The translations under genes were made by a program, and so were the position numbers. Positions 7,587 through 32,719 of a stretch of DNA of 33,056 nucleotides are shown here, in pieces; the stretch's first letter is position 1; each line of letters starts with the position of its first letter. The stretch is taken from assembly GCA_024685655.1 (NCBI GenBank), contig JAIKVO010000097.1:1-33056 (forward strand), read 5' to 3'. Below the pieces are notes generated by a model, which saw nothing but the letters and a program-made list of their open reading frames with translations, made no database searches and had not been told where the DNA came from. Source of the DNA: Treponemataceae bacterium. GTDB taxonomy: Bacteria; Spirochaetota; Spirochaetia; Treponematales; Treponemataceae.

Positions 7587-8816
7587 TTAAAATCTGGATT
7601 TCACAACTTCAAAAATAGAATTAAGTATATCTGTGGATACTTTTTTATCATTCTTCAGTTCTTCAAAAGCATTTATGTACTTTTTCCCAAAGTCATCAAA
7701 TATTTTTGAAAAAACAGAATATTTAATATTCAAAGTTTCTGCTAACAGAGAAAAATCTTCTTTTGTTACTTTCTGAATCTCGTAATGTTTTCCAATTTTC
7801 ATTGATAGCTTTTCCGTCAGACCTGGATAAATTACAGTCGAAACAACATCGTACAAAGGAGACAGCTCAACACTTCTGTTTTTGTAGAGAAGAGAATAGT
7901 TTTTCCCGTGACTGTCACAATTTCCTATCAAATAATTGAAAAGAACATAGCGCAGGAATTTCTGGCTTTCCAAAGCTGGAACGGTGCAAACTTTTGTTAT
8001 TGTATTAAAAATGTCAGCAATTCCAGGTCCGCCATCATTCTGATATTTTGAAGTGCTAATAATACCGAGTGCCTGACAAAAATCTTCCTGATGAAGGCGT
8101 TGAATTGAGTTTCCTTCATTGATTCGGTCATATCGTTCAACTACAAAAACCTCTTTTCCTGCAATCTTCAGTAAATCAACATTTGGAACAGGGAGCGCAA
8201 AACTTTTTGCCAGTTTCATGCAGATGTATTCATTTTTTGCAAGCGAAGAAAGACTACCTGTGCGAGTCGGTTTTAATATATGAGTGGATGGAGCACCATT
8301 TAATGGCAGATACCATTTTTCATTTTTTTTTGCAAGTGCTAGTTTTTCCTGTGCCCCTGCAAGCGAAAGACGTAACTTATCATCTGCCTTAATAAGAGGA
8401 CGCATATTCATTTTTTCGATAAAATCCGAAAGCCTGTCAGAATCAATCAGTTCATAGTTATCTGAATCTAAATTATAACTTGTTTCTGTATGAATCGAAT
8501 CATCTTCACTCAGAATTGAAATGAGTCCTGCACATTCACCGCCTAATGCTTCAAGCAATTTCAGGGTGCTGGTTTCTGATATATGAAGATAATCCGCAAT
8601 TTTTTTCCGCGAATTTTCTTCAGGTAAAAGCCCTGCGAAAAAGGGAATACACTGTTTTTGGGGAAATTCTTCACTTTGTAAAGGAAGCGATGCAGAGAGC
8701 GGAAGTGCGTTTTTGTTCAGCAGATAATTTTTATCGTAAACGAAAATCACGCCACGGTTTTCTGTTGATTCAAGCGAACCAGCTTTTTCATTTCCAAAGA
8801 AAACATTCAGTTTCAT
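7587..8816 (-). CDS. hipA: HipA-family serine/threonine kinase toxin (first locus)
   Basis: HipA toxins are kinases that stop growth by phosphorylating a translation factor (glutamyl-tRNA synthetase in E. coli) and are neutralised by HipB. The 409-residue chain holds the N-terminal beta domain (about 1-100) and the kinase core: SLAGAQEKLAL (151-161, ATP loop), K182 in HILKP, ERYDR (227-231), catalytic NCDSHGKN (299-306, D301 the likely base) and metal-binding D323 in LYDV. The length is normal and no key residue is missing. Its ATG overlaps the hipB stop as ATGA, and GGAG lies 8 bases upstream within hipB. The target cannot be predicted. Confidence 0.92.
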   Translation of the reverse strand: MKLNVFFGNEKAGSLESTENRGVIFVYDKNYLLNKNALPLSASLPLQSEEFPQKQCIPFFAGLLPEENSRKKIADYLHISETSTLKLLEALGGECAGLISILSEDDSIHTETSYNLDSDNYELIDSDRLSDFIEKMNMRPLIKADDKLRLSLAGAQEKLALAKKNEKWYLPLNGAPSTHILKPTRTGSLSSLAKNEYICMKLAKSFALPVPNVDLLKIAGKEVFVVERYDRINEGNSIQRLHQEDFCQALGIISTSKYQNDGGPGIADIFNTITKVCTVPALESQKFLRYVLFNYLIGNCDSHGKNYSLLYKNRSVELSPLYDVVSTVIYPGLTEKLSMKIGKHYEIQKVTKEDFSLLAETLNIKYSVFSKIFDDFGKKYINAFEELKNDKKVSTDILNSIFEVVKSRF

Positions 8817-17411: not shown

Positions 17412-17451
17412 AAAACAGGGGGAACGCTGAACACAGTTGTACGCTCCCCCT
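17410..17451 (-). terminator. Intrinsic terminator of the DUF6273 operon
   Basis: On the minus strand AGGGGGA (17445-17451) pairs with TCCCCCT (17417-17423), with two further GC pairs beyond one mismatch, and is followed by GTTTTTT. It lies about 50 bases past the stop of the 923-residue gene, and its T tract overlaps the stop codon of the convergent YggT gene. It has no T tract in the plus direction. Confidence 0.65.
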
Positions 17452-17502
17452 CTGCCACACAGGTGCAAAATTCATTTTACACCGCAACGCCGTTGCTTCC
17501 AG

Positions 17503-20274
17503 CTACTTCGCCACAAATTTAATCGTTCCAAAAGAATTCACGCCACCCGAAGTCCTGAACTCGCCTACAAGGAAAAGTCGCTCCGTTCCTTGCGAAAGTT
17601 TGCAGGAATACGAGAAACTCCTTGGCGAACCACCGGCAGAAACGACTTCCGGGAACGTTGCAACAACATTTCCATCCGCAATGAGCGTTACATTTCTTGC
17701 ACAAAGTTTATGCGCACCTTTTGTGTATGTGAATGTCGTCTCAAAATTTGTCGTACTTCCTTTTACGCATGCTGAATAATCAAATATAAACTTCTGATAT
17801 TCAGTCGTAAAGTCGCCATCTTTCCATGTAGAGGAATTATTTCCTTTTTCAAGGATTGTCTTAACAGCATTCCGCATGAGAGAATCCGCACTTTCAGCTA
17901 CCTGGATTAATTCAGCCGATTCCAGTTCCGACGAAATAAAAAGAGCTGGAACAACGCCTGCTGATTCATACGGCAGATGAGTACCTCTTGGGTTATTATC
18001 AAGAACATGATGTACCGATTCATTGGTAGCCGGAGAGCGCAACCACCAATCACCGTAAATCTTTTTATAATATCCTGTTTGAACTGGAACATACGCTCCG
18101 TTAGCTTTTGCAAAGTCGGTCGGAAGGCGCGTCAGATAACTGTCTTTCTCAAAAAATCCGTATCCCTTTTCCGATGCCTGGTCTTCGCTCAAAAGGAAAA
18201 TCTTATCAGTTGTGTCATGGCTGACATAAAGCTTTAAGTCATCGTCAGCTTTTTCATCCGCATGAACCATGCTTTGAACGCCGTTATCAACATACGCAGG
18301 AATAATCAATTCTTGCAAGTCCGGAGTAAACGCATTCTGCAAAAAGCCGTTATCAAGATATTCGTCGTTCAAAACCGTCTTATTACTGTCGGCTTCCCTT
18401 TTATAATATGAAAGGCCGTTGAGATAAGCGCGGAGTATCGAGTATTCGTAATTATTCGCATGGATTTTTTGTCCTTTTATAGTCCTGGCGCATGAATCAA
18501 AATCAAAACTGAAATCTCCGTCATACCAGCAGACATCAGCCAGAATGTCCTCCGCAAGAAGAAACCTTTTACCGTTGTAATCATCTGTTAAAATACGCCA
18601 TTTTATCGGCTCAACCTTAAAATATGCATCGGTCAGGCCGTTCTGACCTACAGGCGTTCCATCGGAATATTTAGCCAGAGCGTCACCATATCCTGCAGAA
18701 TTGACATAGAAATAGCCGTCACTTCCAAGATAATATGTGAATCCGCCGACTTCTACAGATTTCGTAATGTCAACCGAAACATCAGGTGCTTTTTTTGTTT
18801 TCGGCCAATCACCGAAAAGAGCATACATCTCGCTACTGCCAGCAGTTCCGTCTGTTCCTCTTGGCAGTTCCGTATATGGAGTGCCTTTGAATTTGCCGGT
18901 AAAATCTCCGTCAAAAGGGAACTCCACAGCGTACCGAACAGAAGTTTCCTTCCTTATGCCTTTTTCGTTGTAGATTACTGTCAGCTCAGAAATTCCTGCC
19001 GTATCAGTTTCAAAACCGTTCGTTTTATAGTACTCAACATTTTTTCTAGAGCCATCACTGTATCTTGCCGTAACGACAAGTCCGCTAAGATCAAGAGACT
19101 CACCTGGGAAATACCATGATTTTGCAGGCCGCGACGTAACTTCTATGCTTTCTAGTGTTGCACCGCTGTAAGGAATACAAATAGCCGGAACAATACCATG
19201 ATCTTTGATATTTCCCCATACATATTTCGCAGCTACGAAACTGCTTTCAATTCTACCGTCGGCATTGCTTATACAGACACATTCATCATCTATCGTATCA
19301 GGGGAACGCAGCCACCATTCATCTCCTACCATGTACGAAATCGATGTTTCCTTAGCATAATCCGTAGCCTCACGGATTCTTGATTTTTCCGCGATTTCTT
19401 TAGGATGTTTCACTTCATAAAGTTTGTTATCCTCATCCAGAAAACCAAATTCAGAGTTCCAAAGATCAACATTGCTCAAAAGAAAAACCTTATCAGAAGT
19501 AGAATGCGCAGTTGGGTAATAATTCGTTATATCAGGGTCAATGTCTATGCTTGCATTGCTATTATCGATTTTTGTATTGATAATGCGTCTTTGTATATTT
19601 GCGCTGAATGCAGTCTGCAAAAAGCCCCTATTAAGGAATTCATCGTTCAATATCTGATCATGATCTGCTGTTTTCTTTACGTGGTAAGAAAGTCCGTTAA
19701 GGAACGCACGTATTCTTGAATGCTCGTAATTGTTAAGATAAACCATCTCACGGTCTATATTCCGTCTGTTATAGCCCGTCTTATATTTACTTGCACGTTT
19801 GCCGTCATCATCGGAATCTTGCCATATATCATAGGCAAGGATATTCTCCGCAAGAAGCAGCATTCCACCCGCAGGCTGATAATCAACTGTTAGAACGCGC
19901 CATTTTATCGGCTCCACCTTAAAGTAGAAATCGTTTTTCTTTGCGTACCAGTTGCCATCATTTCCGTAATAATATATGAACGCTCCTACATTTACGGAAC
20001 GTCTTTCATTCACAATGACATTGCTCGCTTTCTTCGACTGGGGCCAGTCACCGAAAAGCACGTAATCCCCTGTCGGTCCTATCGTTCCGTCCGTTCCTTT
20101 TGGAAGTTCGGTAAAAACCGTTCCCCTGAAATCTGTCTGTGCGAAAATGTTGCCGCCGCAAATGCAAATGAACACAATAAGTGCAAATGCGCTAGCAAAA
20201 CGGTGAGATGTACGGAACATCCACGACATACCGTGTTGTCTGCAATATTTTGCAAATAGCCTTCTTTTTTCCAT
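17503..20274 (-). CDS. Secreted protein with two DUF6273 domains and an Ig-like domain
   Basis: 923 residues. A basic N-terminus and hydrophobic stretch (about 26-45, ending NIFAQ) form a signal peptide. Order of domains: DUF6273 (about 52-367), group-3 bacterial Ig-like domain (373-450; SIEVTSRP start, YSDGSRK), second DUF6273 (463-782) and a C-terminal beta-rich domain (about 815-923). Each DUF6273 has the string FGDWP, KVEPIKWR, LLAE, LNGLSY, GFLQ.AF, FLLS, WWLRSP and VPA. The C-terminal domain (TYTKGAHKLCARNVTLIADG) resembles the small beta-sandwich at the end of some family-20 glycosidases; that is a weak inference. GGAGAG lies 5 bases before the ATG. It starts 18 bases after the larger paralogue, so the two are one operon. 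Ligand unknown. Confidence 0.88.
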   Translation of the reverse strand: MEKRRLFAKYCRQHGMSWMFRTSHRFASAFALIVFICICGGNIFAQTDFRGTVFTELPKGTDGTIGPTGDYVLFGDWPQSKKASNVIVNERRSVNVGAFIYYYGNDGNWYAKKNDFYFKVEPIKWRVLTVDYQPAGGMLLLAENILAYDIWQDSDDDGKRASKYKTGYNRRNIDREMVYLNNYEHSRIRAFLNGLSYHVKKTADHDQILNDEFLNRGFLQTAFSANIQRRIINTKIDNSNASIDIDPDITNYYPTAHSTSDKVFLLSNVDLWNSEFGFLDEDNKLYEVKHPKEIAEKSRIREATDYAKETSISYMVGDEWWLRSPDTIDDECVCISNADGRIESSFVAAKYVWGNIKDHGIVPAICIPYSGATLESIEVTSRPAKSWYFPGESLDLSGLVVTARYSDGSRKNVEYYKTNGFETDTAGISELTVIYNEKGIRKETSVRYAVEFPFDGDFTGKFKGTPYTELPRGTDGTAGSSEMYALFGDWPKTKKAPDVSVDITKSVEVGGFTYYLGSDGYFYVNSAGYGDALAKYSDGTPVGQNGLTDAYFKVEPIKWRILTDDYNGKRFLLAEDILADVCWYDGDFSFDFDSCARTIKGQKIHANNYEYSILRAYLNGLSYYKREADSNKTVLNDEYLDNGFLQNAFTPDLQELIIPAYVDNGVQSMVHADEKADDDLKLYVSHDTTDKIFLLSEDQASEKGYGFFEKDSYLTRLPTDFAKANGAYVPVQTGYYKKIYGDWWLRSPATNESVHHVLDNNPRGTHLPYESAGVVPALFISSELESAELIQVAESADSLMRNAVKTILEKGNNSSTWKDGDFTTEYQKFIFDYSACVKGSTTNFETTFTYTKGAHKLCARNVTLIADGNVVATFPEVVSAGGSPRSFSYSCKLSQGTERLFLVGEFRTSGGVNSFGTIKFVAK

Positions 20275-20292
20275 AATAACTCTCCAATATTT

Positions 20293-23200
20293 CTACTTTA
20301 CGATACAAATCGCAGGAACTACGTCTATGCAGTCATTGATATAATCATATTCTTCTGTATTTCCGTCATAAAGTACCTGGCGTACACAACATCCCTCATC
20401 AAAGCTTGAGAAATAATAAGGAGACCTAAGCCACCAATAACGGCCAGTAATCAAGTCAGAATAAGGAATTTCACCAGTCATATCCAGATAATCAGTAGAT
20501 TCACGGATTCTTGTGCTTCCTGTTTTATCGTACTTTGGGAAACCATAAAGCGATTCTGTAATTTCTTTCTCGCTCAAAAGGAATACTTTATCCGTTGTAT
20601 CTGCGCAGATAAACTGCCCAACCGCAGGTTGCTTACGGGCCGCATCAGAAGTGCTGTACAAACCGTTGTCAATTGTTGTAGACGCAATTACTTTCTGCGC
20701 AGTCTCGCTGAACGCAGTCTGTAAGAAACCTTTGTTCACGAACGATGAGTTCATGATTTGCATTGAGCTGTCAGAATCTTTTGTTATATACGAAATACCA
20801 TTAAGGTAAGCACGAATTTTTGAGTGCTCGTAATTGTTAGGATAAACTACTTTTCCGTCCAGAGTTCTATTGTATATGTAATCATAGAACTGACAGTCCA
20901 TAAGTGACTTCTCTGACAAAAGCAGAGTATTTCCGTTGAAATCATCGGTAAGAACACGCCACTTAATAGGCTCTACCTTAAAGTAGAAAGCATATGCCTC
21001 ACAGTACCACTCTCCGTCACTACCAAGGTAATACGTGAATGAGCCTGCCTGCCGTGTCTCGGATTCATAAACAACGACATCGTTTTCCTTAAGCGACTGC
21101 GGCCATTCGCCGAACAGAACATATTTTCCGCTTCTTCCTGCCGTTCCGTCTGTTCCAGCGGGAAGCTCCGTATATCCAGTTCCTGCCGTGTTGCTTACAC
21201 TCGCCTGCTTGAATAAGCCAGATTCATTCTCATCTACAGCCGCACCTACGACTTTTGCAGCATCGCTTGCTTTTGCCTGTTTTTCATAGCGGACGATTCC
21301 TACTCTTTCTGGAATCACATTAGTTTTCCGTGGTTGTGATTCTGTGGTGACTACAGTGGTTGGATTGACAGTTGTATTTGAAACCGTAGCCGTTGCCGAA
21401 CTGCTCGCCGAATCTGGAATATTTTCCGAACTTGAGGAATCTGCAACATCGGCTGCAGAATTATCCGTCATATCAGAATTATCATCTTCACGCGGAATTC
21501 TTGTGGCATTTACCTTTTTTGTCTTTCCGCTGTAATAAACAAGTATAGAGTAATCTTCCAGCCTACTGTCAGCATTTCCTGAACTCGATCCCCATGAGGT
21601 TATTGTATAAACAAACGGGGCTTCTTTAGTTACTCCATTTTCTTCATAGCTCACTGTCGCTGTATGTTTTCCAGGAATAGATGAATTGAAATCTCGAATA
21701 ATAAATTCTTTCAAATCTTTCGAACTACCGTCACTGTATTTTGCGACTACAGAATCTATATCCCAAGTAATCCAGTCGATAGTTTCACCAACTTCATACT
21801 CATAATCCATAGCGAACGGATTAATATTAATTTCTATACTTTCGAGAACAGCTGGCATACCTGTGTTCTGTGGCTTGCTGTTTGTACCGGAGCTTGTTCC
21901 TACTCCGCTCGTTGTGTTTGTACTCGAACTGGAACTGTCAGAGCTGCTTGAAGAACCTGTGCCGCTCGGTTTAGTCGTGCTACTTGCCGAGCCTGTTCCA
22001 GAAGAAGAGCTGCTTGAAGAACTCGTACCGCTCGGTTTGGTCGAGCTTCCTGCCGAACTACCACTGCTTCCAGAACTACCGGAACCGCTTGAATTTCTGG
22101 AAATCAATGTCGTGGACATTGATCTGCTTTTTCCATTATCCGTAATTACAATCTTATAATCTTCTGTATCATCTTGCTTTGAGCCGGTTGAATTTTTTCC
22201 AGTAATCGTATAACTATACGGGATTTCTTTCGTAACACCATTCTCCGTATAGCTCAGTGTAATCGTATGCTTTCCCGGCGTGGAGGAGCTGAATCCTTTT
22301 ATAATATACTCCATCACTTCTTTTGAGCTACCATCACTATAATTCGCAATTACAGATGATATATCAAACAGAATCCAAGCAGCAGATTCTCCTATATTAT
22401 ACTCTCGTCCTGCTGTATAGCTCTTGTTTATAACCTCTATACTGTCCAAAGTCATCGGGCCGGCAGGAGTCACCATGCTATTCGGAAGGCACAACGCAGG
22501 AACAATTCCATTGCTTGTCTCATTAACATCATCACGTGCAGTTTCTATAGAAGAATCTACCACCCGGTATACAGACTGCCAGAAAGAATCACTTGGAGAA
22601 CGGAGCCACCAAGCACCTTTCGTAGATTTGCCGCTGCCAGAAACAACTCGTGCACCCAATGCTTTCGAAAAATCAGTCAAAAGGCGAGACCTCTCAGGCA
22701 CAGCCGTACTTCCGGACTTCTCGCCCAAACCGAACGCCTTCTTAGTCGCATCGTTCACACTCAGAAGGAATATCTTATCTTTCGTATTATTACTTATGTA
22801 TTTTGACGATTGGCTTGCAAGTCTCTCATCTTTTGCGGTACTTTCTTCACTGTTGTCAACTGTTGTAGTCACAATCTGATTCTGGGCTTTCTTGCTGAAT
22901 GCAGTCTGCAAAAAGCCTTTATCAACATAATCTTTGTTCACAGACTGCTTGTGGTTTCCGCTTGTTTCCAACGTATAATATGAAAGACCGTTAAGATACG
23001 CACGAATTGTAGAATACTCATAATTGTTCGGATAAACAGTGTTTCCGCTTATAGATCTGTGAGCATTCGTTCCTCCGCCGGAATATGAATAGTCGTAACC
23101 AGAGTACCACGTACCTGCCGCAAGAACGTTTTCTGCCAGCAGCATAGCATTTCCGCTGTAAAAGTCAGTTACTACGCGCCACTTTATAGGTTCGACCTTA

Positions 23201-25527
23201 AAGTATTTATACGTCTGATTATTTCTTCCTGCTGTCGTTCCATCGGCATATTTGTAATTTGATGAGAATGCATTCTCAAATATCTTCGCGTAGAAAGCTC
23301 CGTCACTTCCCAAATAGTACGTAAACGCACCGACTTTTACCGATTTTGTTTCGTCTATAGCGATATTCGATGCCTTTTTAGTCTGCGGCCAATCACCAAA
23401 CAGTGCATATCGACCTTTTGTACCGAACGTTCCGTCTGTTCCTTTTGGAAGCTCTGTATATTCAGTTCCTTTGAACTCGCCTGTAAATGTTCCTTTAAAT
23501 GGGAATGAGACTGTGTAATCGATTTTAAAACTTTGGTCGGAATAAGGCTCTCCCAAACGTATCGTAAGGGTATGATTTCCTGCAATCTCCGTATCGAAAT
23601 CGCTTACCGTGTAGTTGGTGATCGTTTTCTTTGTACCGTCATAGTATGTTGCCGTAATGACAAGTCCTTTGAGGTCAAGCGACTCTCCGGCATTATAAAC
23701 CGTCTTAGTCGGCTTTGAAGAAATACCTATCACAGGCAGAACAACTTTGTAATCTATACTAAGTTCTTTTTCTACAAGCAATTCCGAGCACTTTATAGTA
23801 AGTTTGTGATTTCCGGCTACCGTAGAATCAAAACCGCTCGTAGTATAGCGGGTCAGAGTTTTCTTGCTGCCGTCACTATATGTCGCTGTAATAACGAGTC
23901 CTGTAAGATCAAGCTCCTCCCCGGGACTGTAAGTTGTCTTCTTTGGCTTCGACGAAACTTCTATGCTTTTGAGAGTCGGTATATCTGATGAGATTGCCAG
24001 AGCTGGAACAAGACCATGGATTTCCGTTCCGACAAAGCTTTCTCCATCGCCCTCACCGGATACTCTCATGTTTCCGTTGCTTTCGACAGTGAAAACAGAG
24101 TGTGTAGCATGATTAAAAAATGGAGAATCCTGCGAGAATCCTTGCGCTACAGAAGAACCAGACGAACTTCCTTGCTGCTTGGTAATGTTCAGACCTGCAG
24201 AAGAATCTGCCAGAATGCGGCCAGAAGCGTAATACGTTCTCTTCCAATATGGCTCGCTAAGGGCAGATATTATAACGCCAGTTCTGCGGCCATCACTGAC
24301 AGCATTGATCATCTTGTTGTCACCAAGATAAATTCCAACGTGGGAAACTTTTGTACCGTTCTCACTGAAAAAAACAAGATCACCTGGCTGACGCTCAGAA
24401 TCCTTAATGTGCGTGGAAGCCTGATATTGAAGAGCCGCCGTTCTTGGAATCTGCATTCCTATTGCCTGCGCCGCAAGATAAGTCAGTCCCGAACAGTCAA
24501 TTCCTTTTTTCGACGTTCCGCCCCAAACATACGGAACACCCAAATACTTCTTTGCGTTCTCAATAAAAAGATTTCTTTCCTCGCCGACTACAACTCCCAA
24601 AGTCTGAAGCAGCAATGCACCGTCAGTATCATTCTCAACATACTGCGGCTCGGCATAAAACGAAGCATACGGGGAACGAAGCCACCATTCTTCTATATCA
24701 TCTTCAGGATTATCTTCCGCGCTTGCCTCTGCAAAATGAGTTGGCAGACGAACTCGCCCGGAAGCGGAACCAGTTTCAAAGTACTCACCGAAACCATATT
24801 TTTTTGTCGTAGCTTCTTTCCGGCTAAGAAGAAATATTTTGTCCAACGTATCATCGCACGATGAAAGCGATGCTGTGTTATAATTGTAGAAACCAGTCTC
24901 CGTTGCAGAGCTTTCCGGGCTATTATCTACTTTTGTGTCGGCTATATAGTACCGGATATATTCACTGAACGCAGTCTGCAAAAATCCTTTTCCCTGAAAT
25001 TCATCATTCGTAGTTTGAGAAGTTTTGTTCGATTTTTTCACGGGATATGAAAGACCGTTCAGATAAGCGCGGACTTTTGAATGCTCGTAGTTGTTGTCAT
25101 AAACTTCATTGCCGTTTACTGTTCTGAAATCAGCAGTTGAGTTGTCATACCAATCTATGCTGAAAAGAATGCTCTCCGCAAGAAGAAGAATATTTCCGTT
25201 GTAGTTGTCGGTGACAATCCGCCATTTTATAGGCTCTACCTTGTAATAATCCCAGTCAACTTTCGCATACCAGTAACCATCGCTTCCGTAATAATATGTA
25301 AACGCACCAACCTGCACTGATTTGCTTTCATCGATTTTTACGCCATAGGACAGAGGAGATTGCGGCCAGTCACCAAAAAGCGCATACCTGGCATCTTTTC
25401 CGGCAGTACCGTCAGTCCCAGCAGGAAGAAGTGTAAAATATGTCTCTGAAAAAGGCTGAGCATGCAAAGGAATTAACGCTAATAGAACAAGAAAAAAAAC
25501 AAACGTGAAAATTTTATACTTTTTCAC
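20293..25527 (-). CDS. Giant secreted DUF6273/Ig-like protein with an embedded NlpC/P60 peptidase
   Basis: About 1744 residues (numbered here from GTG 25533). Signal peptide 1-25 (LIPLHA/QPF). Domains: DUF6273-1 (about 31-316), NlpC/P60 (317-440), a second DUF6273 tail (470-515), Ig-like (520-596 and 600-675), DUF6273-2 (686-1016), Ig-like (1029-1110), Ser-rich linker (1148-1222), Ig-like (1229-1311), acidic Ser/Thr linker (1345-1450) and DUF6273-3 (1453-1746). The peptidase has Cys347 in DCSGL, His398 in SHVGIYLG and Asn410 where the third catalytic residue usually falls, so it should cut peptidoglycan-type peptides. Start: GGAG overlaps GTG 25533 but sits 7 bases before GTG 25527, giving VKKYKIFTF as the start. 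It leads a two-gene operon with its own promoter. Surface or periplasmic location is inferred. Confidence 0.9.
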   Translation of the reverse strand: MKKYKIFTFVFFLVLLALIPLHAQPFSETYFTLLPAGTDGTAGKDARYALFGDWPQSPLSYGVKIDESKSVQVGAFTYYYGSDGYWYAKVDWDYYKVEPIKWRIVTDNYNGNILLLAESILFSIDWYDNSTADFRTVNGNEVYDNNYEHSKVRAYLNGLSYPVKKSNKTSQTTNDEFQGKGFLQTAFSEYIRYYIADTKVDNSPESSATETGFYNYNTASLSSCDDTLDKIFLLSRKEATTKKYGFGEYFETGSASGRVRLPTHFAEASAEDNPEDDIEEWWLRSPYASFYAEPQYVENDTDGALLLQTLGVVVGEERNLFIENAKKYLGVPYVWGGTSKKGIDCSGLTYLAAQAIGMQIPRTAALQYQASTHIKDSERQPGDLVFFSENGTKVSHVGIYLGDNKMINAVSDGRRTGVIISALSEPYWKRTYYASGRILADSSAGLNITKQQGSSSGSSVAQGFSQDSPFFNHATHSVFTVESNGNMRVSGEGDGESFVGTEIHGLVPALAISSDIPTLKSIEVSSKPKKTTYSPGEELDLTGLVITATYSDGSKKTLTRYTTSGFDSTVAGNHKLTIKCSELLVEKELSIDYKVVLPVIGISSKPTKTVYNAGESLDLKGLVITATYYDGTKKTITNYTVSDFDTEIAGNHTLTIRLGEPYSDQSFKIDYTVSFPFKGTFTGEFKGTEYTELPKGTDGTFGTKGRYALFGDWPQTKKASNIAIDETKSVKVGAFTYYLGSDGAFYAKIFENAFSSNYKYADGTTAGRNNQTYKYFKVEPIKWRVVTDFYSGNAMLLAENVLAAGTWYSGYDYSYSGGGTNAHRSISGNTVYPNNYEYSTIRAYLNGLSYYTLETSGNHKQSVNKDYVDKGFLQTAFSKKAQNQIVTTTVDNSEESTAKDERLASQSSKYISNNTKDKIFLLSVNDATKKAFGLGEKSGSTAVPERSRLLTDFSKALGARVVSGSGKSTKGAWWLRSPSDSFWQSVYRVVDSSIETARDDVNETSNGIVPALCLPNSMVTPAGPMTLDSIEVINKSYTAGREYNIGESAAWILFDISSVIANYSDGSSKEVMEYIIKGFSSSTPGKHTITLSYTENGVTKEIPYSYTITGKNSTGSKQDDTEDYKIVITDNGKSRSMSTTLISRNSSGSGSSGSSGSSAGSSTKPSGTSSSSSSSSGTGSASSTTKPSGTGSSSSSDSSSSSTNTTSGVGTSSGTNSKPQNTGMPAVLESIEININPFAMDYEYEVGETIDWITWDIDSVVAKYSDGSSKDLKEFIIRDFNSSIPGKHTATVSYEENGVTKEAPFVYTITSWGSSSGNADSRLEDYSILVYYSGKTKKVNATRIPREDDNSDMTDNSAADVADSSSSENIPDSASSSATATVSNTTVNPTTVVTTESQPRKTNVIPERVGIVRYEKQAKASDAAKVVGAAVDENESGLFKQASVSNTAGTGYTELPAGTDGTAGRSGKYVLFGEWPQSLKENDVVVYESETRQAGSFTYYLGSDGEWYCEAYAFYFKVEPIKWRVLTDDFNGNTLLLSEKSLMDCQFYDYIYNRTLDGKVVYPNNYEHSKIRAYLNGISYITKDSDSSMQIMNSSFVNKGFLQTAFSETAQKVIASTTIDNGLYSTSDAARKQPAVGQFICADTTDKVFLLSEKEITESLYGFPKYDKTGSTRIRESTDYLDMTGEIPYSDLITGRYWWLRSPYYFSSFDEGCCVRQVLYDGNTEEYDYINDCIDVVPAICIVK
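21868..22092 (-). repeat. Ser/Gly/Thr-rich linker with a 22-residue tandem duplication
   Basis: Residues about 1148-1222 of the giant protein are almost only Ser, Gly, Thr, Lys and Pro. A 22-residue unit starting KPSGT occurs twice in a row; at the DNA level the plus-strand word GAGCTGCTTGAAGAA recurs 66 bases apart (21941 and 22007). It is a flexible spacer between two Ig-like domains. Its antisense strand gives a false Leu/Glu-rich frame. Confidence 0.75.
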
Positions 25528-25612
25528 AGACACTCTCCATTATCGACACAAAAAGATTGTTAAAGCGTTAAAGAATTATTGAAAAACAATCATCCGGCTA
25601 CGATATTTTCAT

Positions 25613-25641
25613 ATTATCGCACGAGATTCTTACGGTGTAAA
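25613..25641 (-). promoter_or_regulatory. Promoter of the DUF6273 operon
   Basis: On the minus strand TTTACA (25636-25641, 5/6) and GATAAT (25613-25618, 5/6) are 17 bases apart, with TG one base before the -10 box (extended -10). The expected leader is about 80 bases. It is the best-scoring promoter by eye in the window and points to strong expression. Confidence 0.7.
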
Positions 25642-25682
25642 CAGGTATATCAGTAGAACTCTATTCCTATAAATAAATAATG

Positions 25683-25711
25683 TTGTAACGGATTTCCTTT
25701 TATGATATACT
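25683..25711 (+). promoter_or_regulatory. Promoter of the CDP-alcohol phosphotransferase gene (leaderless)
   Basis: TTGTAA (25683-25688, 4/6) and TATACT (25706-25711, 5/6) are 17 bases apart. Transcription should begin at about 25718-25719, on the ATG itself. No Shine-Dalgarno is present. Confidence 0.6.
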
Positions 25712-25718
25712 TTCTTCT

Positions 25719-26855
25719 ATGAATATAAATAAAACTGTCACTACAGAGTACGGAGATTCCAAAAAAAACTATTCCTATTCAGCAGAAGATATGTCTATTA
25801 TTGACTGCTACGTACTAGTTCCGCTCGCAAAAAAGCTCATAACAAAACTTCCTTTATGGCTGCCTGCAAACATAATCACGATTATGTCCAACGGATTCGT
25901 GTTCTTAGCATCAGTAATCGCACTGACCGCAAGAAAAACAAACTGGCCTATTTGGATTCTGATACCGTTTTTATTTATTTTTTATCTTATCGGTGACACT
26001 GCAGACGGCTTGCAGGCACGACGCACAAAAACAGGTTCTCCTTTAGGTGAATTCTGCGATCACTTTCTTGATACATTCGTCACGGGAGAATTACTGTTCT
26101 GCGTATTAACTGCGTACGGAGTAAGAAACCTTCTGTTTGTCGGAATTCTTCTCTATGTCTCATATTTTACGCAAATGACTGCATTCTGGGAAAAGTATGT
26201 TACGAGCAAACTTCATCTCGGTAAATTCGGCTCATCAGAGACAGTCTTGGTATTGTCTTTGTTTTCAACAGTCGGATATCTCCCCAAGGTACATGCTTTT
26301 TTCACGAAATCTATAAATATTCCAATCTCATTCCTTCAGGGATACAACATAACGCTCGTAGAAGTGGTTCTCGCCATTTCTTTGATATTCCCAATTATCT
26401 CAATTGTGACGACACTAATTCGCACAAAGAAGATATCCAAGAATTTCATCCTCTATCTGATTTTAGGCTTGATTCTTACTCTTGCGGCGACATTTTTGGA
26501 GAAAGGCTCTTTCGCCATTGCGTTCCTTACCCTCACATTTTATCACGTTGATTACTCAGCTGCGCTCCTAAGCGCGATCATAATGAAAGAAAAAGAACCA
26601 AAACCAGATTTTATACTGACTGCAGCAATGTGTATCGCATTGTTCTTTGATATTCATCATCCTGTTCTTTATTCGGCTTTCTTCCTATATATTGTTGTAT
26701 TTGTGACAGCAAGAACTGCAATGTTCGTCCATAGGAACAACAAATACTGGTATTGGATAAACCCAGAGCTTCCAAAAGAAGATGAGAACAAAGCTGATAT
26801 AAACAAAACCGCAGCTAAAGCGGCTACAAAAACATCTGAGAATAAAACTGAATAA
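25719..26855 (+). CDS. CDP-alcohol phosphatidyltransferase family membrane protein
   Basis: 378 residues with eight or more membrane segments. The family catalytic motif is complete: D93, D96-G97, A100-R101, G110, D114 and D118, in the order DGxxARx8GxxxDxxxD, which binds the CDP-alcohol and divalent metal. The size and the WLPANIITIMSN block before the motif are closer to choline/ethanolamine phosphotransferases (about 390 residues) than to the smaller PgsA or Pss enzymes. That would mean transfer of phosphocholine or phosphoethanolamine from CDP to diacylglycerol, a pathway known in oral treponemes; the head group is inferred. The C-terminus is a charged Lys/Ala/Thr tail. Diverges from the DUF6273 operon. 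Confidence 0.88.
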   Translation: MNINKTVTTEYGDSKKNYSYSAEDMSIIDCYVLVPLAKKLITKLPLWLPANIITIMSNGFVFLASVIALTARKTNWPIWILIPFLFIFYLIGDTADGLQARRTKTGSPLGEFCDHFLDTFVTGELLFCVLTAYGVRNLLFVGILLYVSYFTQMTAFWEKYVTSKLHLGKFGSSETVLVLSLFSTVGYLPKVHAFFTKSINIPISFLQGYNITLVEVVLAISLIFPIISIVTTLIRTKKISKNFILYLILGLILTLAATFLEKGSFAIAFLTLTFYHVDYSAALLSAIIMKEKEPKPDFILTAAMCIALFFDIHHPVLYSAFFLYIVVFVTARTAMFVHRNNKYWYWINPELPKEDENKADINKTAAKAATKTSENKTE

Positions 26856-31411: not shown

Positions 31412-32719
31412 TTATAAACTTATTTTTATAAACTCCCAAATCTCGTCGATTCTTCTTTGGGAAACCCCTGAATTTTTTGCTATTATCTTCCAATTAGAAA
31501 CCGCTGTTTTTACATCGGCTATTGCATTTTTAACTTCACGGTGAGATAGGTTTCCAAATTTCGCACAGTTTTCAAAATCTAATTCTGTAAAGTTTTTTCT
31601 TTTTCCGTTAACGGTCATCTGATGGCTTGATGTCCACAATCCATTTGGATTATAGGCAAAAGAAACATCGTAGGCAGGAGAAAGTTTCCATTGTCCCTGC
31701 TTATCCATGAGGAAAGAAATGTTTTTTGTGTGATCGTCACAGTTAAAGGCATAGATATTGAATACCATCCGCTTAAATGCCTCAACAGAATCCAGATGAT
31801 GTAGGCCTATTTTATTCATGACGGAAAAAAACTGTTCATAACTGTAGGCCCCTGCCTGGTTAAAATCCATGTGAGCCATAGCGCATAATGTCTGCATGTG
31901 AAATTTATTACCTTTGTCATCACGGTCAAAGCGTTTTGTCATAAAATGCGAGTTTTTACCATCATCCAGAATTCTGCATTCGCTCATATTAATTCCGGCT
32001 TCTTTAGCCATAAGATAATATGTATATTCAATGATACCAAAATCTTCCCGGTCTTCATCTTCCTTATCTTTATTCCCTGCAACTCCGCTGAATTTAATCA
32101 ACCAGTGTTCAAACCCTTTTGAATTCTCCGTCTGCCCGGAGCGGACTTCATTTGTTTCAGGATTCCATGCAATTACTGCTTTCGCTCTTGCTCCACCGGC
32201 AGAAGTTCCGACGCTTATAATTTGAGAAAGAGCTGTATTCATTTCTGCTTTGTTACATTCATCAAGAACAATATTCAAACTTTTACGGTTTCTTAAGACC
32301 ATAGATGCCAGCTCTACAAGTTCTGAAACATTGATTTTTTCATCTATATTTTCAGAAGCAATTACGGGATAATATTCCAAAGCACCCATTCCGCGCTTTC
32401 CTGTATAACACAGTCTTTCAACTGCATTAAAGCTTTCGGGAAGCCGGCCTTGTTTTGACAACCACACATCAATAATACTGTTACCAAATTTGTCAGGAAG
32501 CGAATCTGAAACCAACCCCGGAAGCCCATGATACGTTTCATACGGAAGCTCCGGAAACCTATAAATGCCTTTTTTTAGCGGCATTACAACAGGAGAAAGC
32601 TGTATTCCACTTTGCACAAAAGAAGGATTATATTCAAAATCTGCAGTACGATTCTGGTCATCAAGGGAGACGGCACCGATGACAGTTCCCCATAGTCTTA
32701 TTTCTGCATTGTTTTTCAT
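31412..32719 (-). CDS. hipA: HipA-family kinase toxin (second locus, different subfamily)
   Basis: 435 residues with the HipA plan: N-terminal beta domain (about 1-115), the loop SVGTSAGGARAKAVIAW (169-185), K209 in HWLIKFSG, MTKRFDR (260-266), catalytic NCDDHTKN (326-333, D328 the likely base) and metal-binding D351 in SPAYDVSF. The NCDDHTKN and GTSAGGARAK forms place it in a subfamily distinct from the first HipA of this window, whose loop is SLAGAQEKL. The residue downstream of the kinase core is intact and no truncation is seen. The ATG overlaps the hipB stop as ATGA. Its cellular target is unknown. Confidence 0.92.
   Translation of the reverse strand: MKNNAEIRLWGTVIGAVSLDDQNRTADFEYNPSFVQSGIQLSPVVMPLKKGIYRFPELPYETYHGLPGLVSDSLPDKFGNSIIDVWLSKQGRLPESFNAVERLCYTGKRGMGALEYYPVIASENIDEKINVSELVELASMVLRNRKSLNIVLDECNKAEMNTALSQIISVGTSAGGARAKAVIAWNPETNEVRSGQTENSKGFEHWLIKFSGVAGNKDKEDEDREDFGIIEYTYYLMAKEAGINMSECRILDDGKNSHFMTKRFDRDDKGNKFHMQTLCAMAHMDFNQAGAYSYEQFFSVMNKIGLHHLDSVEAFKRMVFNIYAFNCDDHTKNISFLMDKQGQWKLSPAYDVSFAYNPNGLWTSSHQMTVNGKRKNFTELDFENCAKFGNLSHREVKNAIADVKTAVSNWKIIAKNSGVSQRRIDEIWEFIKISL

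Follow-up and report, generated by a model that had tools for sequence, protein, structure and literature searches.

A peptidase domain of the NlpC/P60 family interrupts the first DUF6273 domain of a giant protein (P0001) near the C-terminal end of that domain, rather than lying between two whole domains, as comparisons with sequence profiles confirm. The probable explanation is that a MepS-like peptidoglycan endopeptidase was inserted once into the part of a C-type-lectin-like domain that carries the ligand loops, with the host still closing around it. The architecture is rare but understandable.

P0001 is encoded on the minus strand (20293..25533) of the window, that is, of the whole stretch of 33,056 nucleotides that we analysed, which is one contig (C2) in the draft assembly of a Treponema-type genome (G000; 293 contigs, 3.16 Mb). 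The protein has 1746 residues and a GTG start and is predicted to be exported: by eye, its N-terminus (residues 1-25, approximately) is hydrophobic and signal-peptide-like, without a lipobox cysteine. Pfam finds three DUF6273 domains, three Big_3 domains and one NlpC/P60 domain in it, and Ser-rich linkers connect the lectin-like and the Ig-like modules. Copies 2 (22477..23493) and 3 (20296..21192) of DUF6273, both on the minus strand, are uninterrupted and served as controls. Next to P0001 lies the gene of a paralog, P0002 (17503..20274, minus strand; 923 residues), in which one Big_3 domain accompanies two DUF6273 domains, both of them uninterrupted.

To describe the host domain we built a DUF6273 profile of 317 positions from 24 uninterrupted copies from the genus. 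Copy 1 of P0001 matches it in two pieces. The first one covers profile positions 3-294 (residues 33-303, 296.8 bits), with the WWLRSP motif at about positions 274-279; the part that ends at this motif comprises residues 33-288 (24670..25437). The Pfam model PF19789 also recognises copy 1 (59.7 bits, cut-off 23.5), as a fragment that covers positions 1-140 of 172. The second piece covers profile positions 288-316 (residues 489-515), and the gap between the two holds the enzyme. Hence the order on the minus strand is the first piece, a linker (residues 289-319, 24577..24669), the NlpC/P60 domain (residues 320-442, 24208..24576), a Ser/Gly-rich exit linker (residues 443-466, 24136..24207) and the tail of the host, SPFFNHATHSVF...GLVPALAIS (residues 467-515, 23989..24135), followed by a Big_3 Ig-like domain (residues 529-591, 23761..23949). 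The tail joins this Ig-like domain as it does in copy 1 of P0002, and the junctions have the same wording, VPALAISSDIPTLKSIEVSSKP in P0001 and VPAICIPYSGATLESIEVTSRP in P0002. Since the second profile piece leads into a junction like that of P0002, we take the second tail to be the end of the host domain.

We looked for the same arrangement in other Treponema genomes and found it in one, a buffalo-rumen MAG (G003, JAFZVC010000119.1; L012/L041), where the ortholog is 69% identical over residues 4-521 and forms one open frame. Here copy 1 matches profile positions 3-296 and then 285-316, again with the enzyme in between; the exit linker is shorter than in P0001. The original prediction of a peptidase inside the tail region of DUF6273 was thus borne out by a parse of core, enzyme, closing strand and Big_3 domain that recurs in the ortholog. 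All of its landmarks are present, namely WWLRSP at residues 283-288, LGVVVGEE at about 312-319, the Ser-rich exit, and the stretch SPFFNHATHSVF...GLVPALAI, which ends near residue 514; the interval that it gave, 24127-24585, corresponds to residues 317-469, i.e. to the enzyme and the exit linker. It had also stated that WWLRSP is followed by G(V/I)VPA after 30-50 residues in the other four DUF6273 copies. The motif holds, except for one copy with DVVPA, and the spacing is 24-34 residues instead.

Pfam matches NlpC/P60 (PF00877) at residues 332-436 (E 3.3e-29; 101.4 bits, cut-off 23), in agreement with the predicted domain with Cys347 and His398. The codons of Cys347 (24493-24495), His398 (24340-24342) and Asn410 (24304-24306; all minus strand) have counterparts in the ortholog, where all three residues are conserved, so that by sequence the catalytic set is complete in both proteins. 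The third, polar position is Asn in both orthologs and in a few stand-alone relatives, and His in most stand-alone relatives; the family allows Asn for His at this place, and Asn410 is the putative third catalytic residue. Among proteins of known structure the best matches are E. coli Spr/MepS (2k1g and 8xud, E from about 1e-21 to 2e-21), with an alignment that extends through the C-terminal EPYWK strand. Like MepS/Spr and other NlpC/P60 (C40) endopeptidases, the insert contains the whole catalytic domain including the EPYWK-R strand, with Cys and His in place; it differs from MepS/Spr in its third residue, Asn instead of His, and in being nested inside another domain.

The two inserts group together in a tree of 39 enzyme domains (support 99/96), which resolved neither a nearest stand-alone relative nor a donor of the insert. 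The Treponema family also has stand-alone NlpC proteins (about 380 residues; e.g. L007, with 416 residues), which, among the matches listed, occur in nearly all of the 274 family genomes. The closest are 57-58% identical to P0001 over the enzyme, but have no DUF6273 and carry a downstream segment of their own after the enzyme. The stand-alone NlpC of the window's genome (L007 736-1986) has a long C-terminal region that by eye resembles an outer-membrane beta-barrel. Furthermore, a 3.4-kb stretch with a stand-alone NlpC is 99.3% identical between this genome (L007, G000:C64) and one that is classified in a different genus (L130, G267:C137), which is either a recent transfer or a contamination of the MAGs.

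Published work with AlphaFold and DALI has assigned DUF6273 to the C-type lectin fold, with a variable hairpin or region near its C-terminus (PMC10743442, PMC11792537). Our own AlphaFold models reached a mean pLDDT of 35.5 for copy 1 and 50.0 for copy 2, probably because of the shallow alignments (8 and 6 rows). For copy 1 we removed the tails of the remaining copies from the alignment, so that neither tail was favoured, and discarded a version with NlpC-only rows, which MAFFT had misplaced. A Foldseek search with the poor copy 2 control model returned no significant match, only noise, and a profile search of the PDB with DUF6273 found nothing.

Taking the published fold as a basis, we propose that a MepS-like NlpC/P60 domain was inserted a single time, before the two species separated. 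In this view it entered a loop or hairpin that lies after the WWLRSP strand and ahead of the closing VPAL strand, in the first DUF6273 of an exported protein with several lectins and an Ig stalk. The host domain would close around the enzyme by means of the post-enzyme tail, and two flexible linkers of about 31 and 24 residues would hold the enzyme on the side that bears the ligand loops in C-type lectins. The other DUF6273 and Ig-like domains may serve as a stalk and for binding, placing the enzyme on a wall or glycan surface, which may belong to the cell itself or to neighbouring cells. Its simplest predicted function is to cut the stem peptides of peptidoglycan. One could go further and suppose that, with the enzyme at the position of the ligand or variable loops, the binding face itself bears the catalytic site and the capture of a ligand orients or switches cleavage, as in a lectin-gated peptidoglycan hydrolase; we regard this as speculative and unlikely.

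Two known systems are similar in parts. The DUF6273/tentaclin C-type-lectin-like phage proteins that are targets of diversity-generating retroelements (DGR) also combine DUF6273 with Ig-like domains, and their variable region maps to the C-terminal portion of DUF6273, broadly the region that holds the insertion in P0001 (PMC10743442, PMC11792537). They are diversified by retroelements and not by the insertion of a domain. We found no reverse transcriptase (PF00078) in either G000 or G003, both of them draft assemblies, and therefore no sign of a diversity-generating system. The IgA protease ThomasA likewise joins DUF6273 and a peptidase in one exported protein with multiple beta-domains, but its peptidase is of another family, M64, and is appended after DUF6273 (PMC12402451). 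Nested domains are found in about 20% of multidomain proteins (PMC13114784), and a 2019 survey table lists LysM, SH3, SLH, SPOR and similar modules as partners of NlpC/P60 (PMC6403190); in the literature that we searched we found no NlpC/P60 wall peptidase with a lectin-like domain as its host. If the host still binds, P0001 would be a natural test case for a binding face that tolerates an inserted enzyme, and for binding that steers wall cleavage in ruminant-associated spirochetes.

ThomasA is also a precedent for an unlikely alternative, namely that the peptidase is merely appended between a whole DUF6273 and a separate module, and that the second tail belongs elsewhere. The first segment, which is unlike other tails and yet conserved at GVVVGEERN, might then replace the closing strand. 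We compared both segments with a profile of 23 other DUF6273 tails from the genus. The closing GVVPAL tail is present C-terminal of the enzyme and scores 16.1 bits in the window and 33.1 bits in the ortholog against this short profile, and none of 2000 shuffles reaches either score. Since it also supplies the profile positions that the first piece lacks and precedes a Big_3 domain as in uninterrupted copies, the evidence argues for nesting rather than for an appended enzyme.

Potentially, the insertion has destroyed copy 1 as a binding domain, leaving the enzyme as the only part that counts and the tail as a remnant in decay. The tail of the window is indeed diverged: it reaches 16 bits alone, and a parse with the full DUF6273 profile gives it 0.7 bits; given this, copy 1 could be partly degenerate. 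Between the orthologs the second tail (61% identity) is less conserved than the DUF6273 core (73%) and the enzyme (77%). On the other hand, the core is conserved nearly as well as the enzyme, which in turn is at least as conserved as the core and more so than the exit linker (56%) and the first linker (55%); the tail of the ortholog is a strong match, and tails vary widely in all copies. We therefore consider a complete loss of the host quite unlikely. For core, enzyme and second tail alike, dS between the orthologs is saturated and gives no usable dN/dS.

The original prediction went beyond nesting and held that the tail occurs on both sides of the peptidase, as if recombination had brought in a segment of peptidase plus tail and so duplicated the end of DUF6273. 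By eye the first segment does look like a tail, with WWLRSP-Y and a GVV 24 residues later; SP is found on both sides of the enzyme, and the profile weakly aligns the first 15-20 residues after WWLRSP. We were not able to substantiate this. Against the tail profile, the segment before the enzyme obtains 1.3 bits in the window and -0.6 bits in the ortholog; out of 2000 shuffles, 278 and 1759, respectively, do at least as well. When the segment is anchored behind the WWLRSP core, 52 (window) and 144 (ortholog) of 500 shuffles still do as well. Copies 2 and 3 have tails that are members of the profile, and these beat 500 of 500. The two segments are also unlike each other, with Smith-Waterman scores at chance level (609 and 969 of 1000 shuffles). 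Finally, WWLRSP plus the first segment gives no match in a Pfam scan, as compared with 22.8 bits for the equivalent piece of copy 2; for bare tails such a scan lacks sensitivity, as control tails without WWLRSP also go unmatched. Only the post-enzyme tail is recognisable, and a second copy of it is improbable. Because the duplicated tail is not supported, neither is a recombined segment of peptidase plus tail. Residues 289-319, which score like their shuffles in both species, appear to be a linker, and their GVV is no evidence of homology. GVVVGEERN beside the enzyme is almost fully conserved between both species (89% identity over residues 311-319) and for this reason should have some role, perhaps as a lead-in to the enzyme.

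An artefact of assembly or binning that fused an NlpC gene to a DUF6273 gene, conceivable in a draft MAG of 293 contigs, can be dismissed, since an independent MAG has identical joins at about 70% amino acid identity, in one open frame each.

How common, then, is the insertion? We searched 274 family genomes with a query that runs from the last part of the core through the enzyme to the tail; among the matches listed, only those in the window's genome and in G003 were full-length, and the others had the enzyme but not the host, in most cases as stand-alone proteins of about 350-450 residues. DUF6273 as such occurs in 118 of 269 family genomes, and the matches listed extend, with few exceptions, to the end of the profile. 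In eight DUF6273 matches from other family genomes that Pfam truncates, we saw no inserted domain in the frames that could be read. As the nesting was seen in two genomes only and in none of these truncated matches, the insertion of NlpC/P60 into DUF6273 appears to be rare. The viral contigs that we searched gave no relative of DUF6273 and one of NlpC. Some DUF6273 matches (G000:C266, C214 and C276; G003:C115) are read through one in-frame TAG, which suggests decaying or split paralogs.

The genomic setting differs between the two species. The genes dnaE, yggT, a CDP-alcohol phosphotransferase gene, a VTT protein gene and recG are contiguous in G003, G006 and G001. In the window, the P0001/P0002 pair (17412-25718) sits between yggT and the CDP-alcohol phosphotransferase gene, and this site is empty in G001, G003 and G006. 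The ortholog in G003 is on another contig (C63), beside genes that by eye look like birA and a biotin transporter; hence the gene has changed place. The stretches at the boundaries of the pair have no inverted repeats of at least 14 bases within either, and the only direct repeat there is an imperfect pair of 18 nt (25660-25733). Elsewhere in the window two genes encode N- and C-terminal HipA domains, one in the first third (7587-8816) and the other towards the end (31412-32719).
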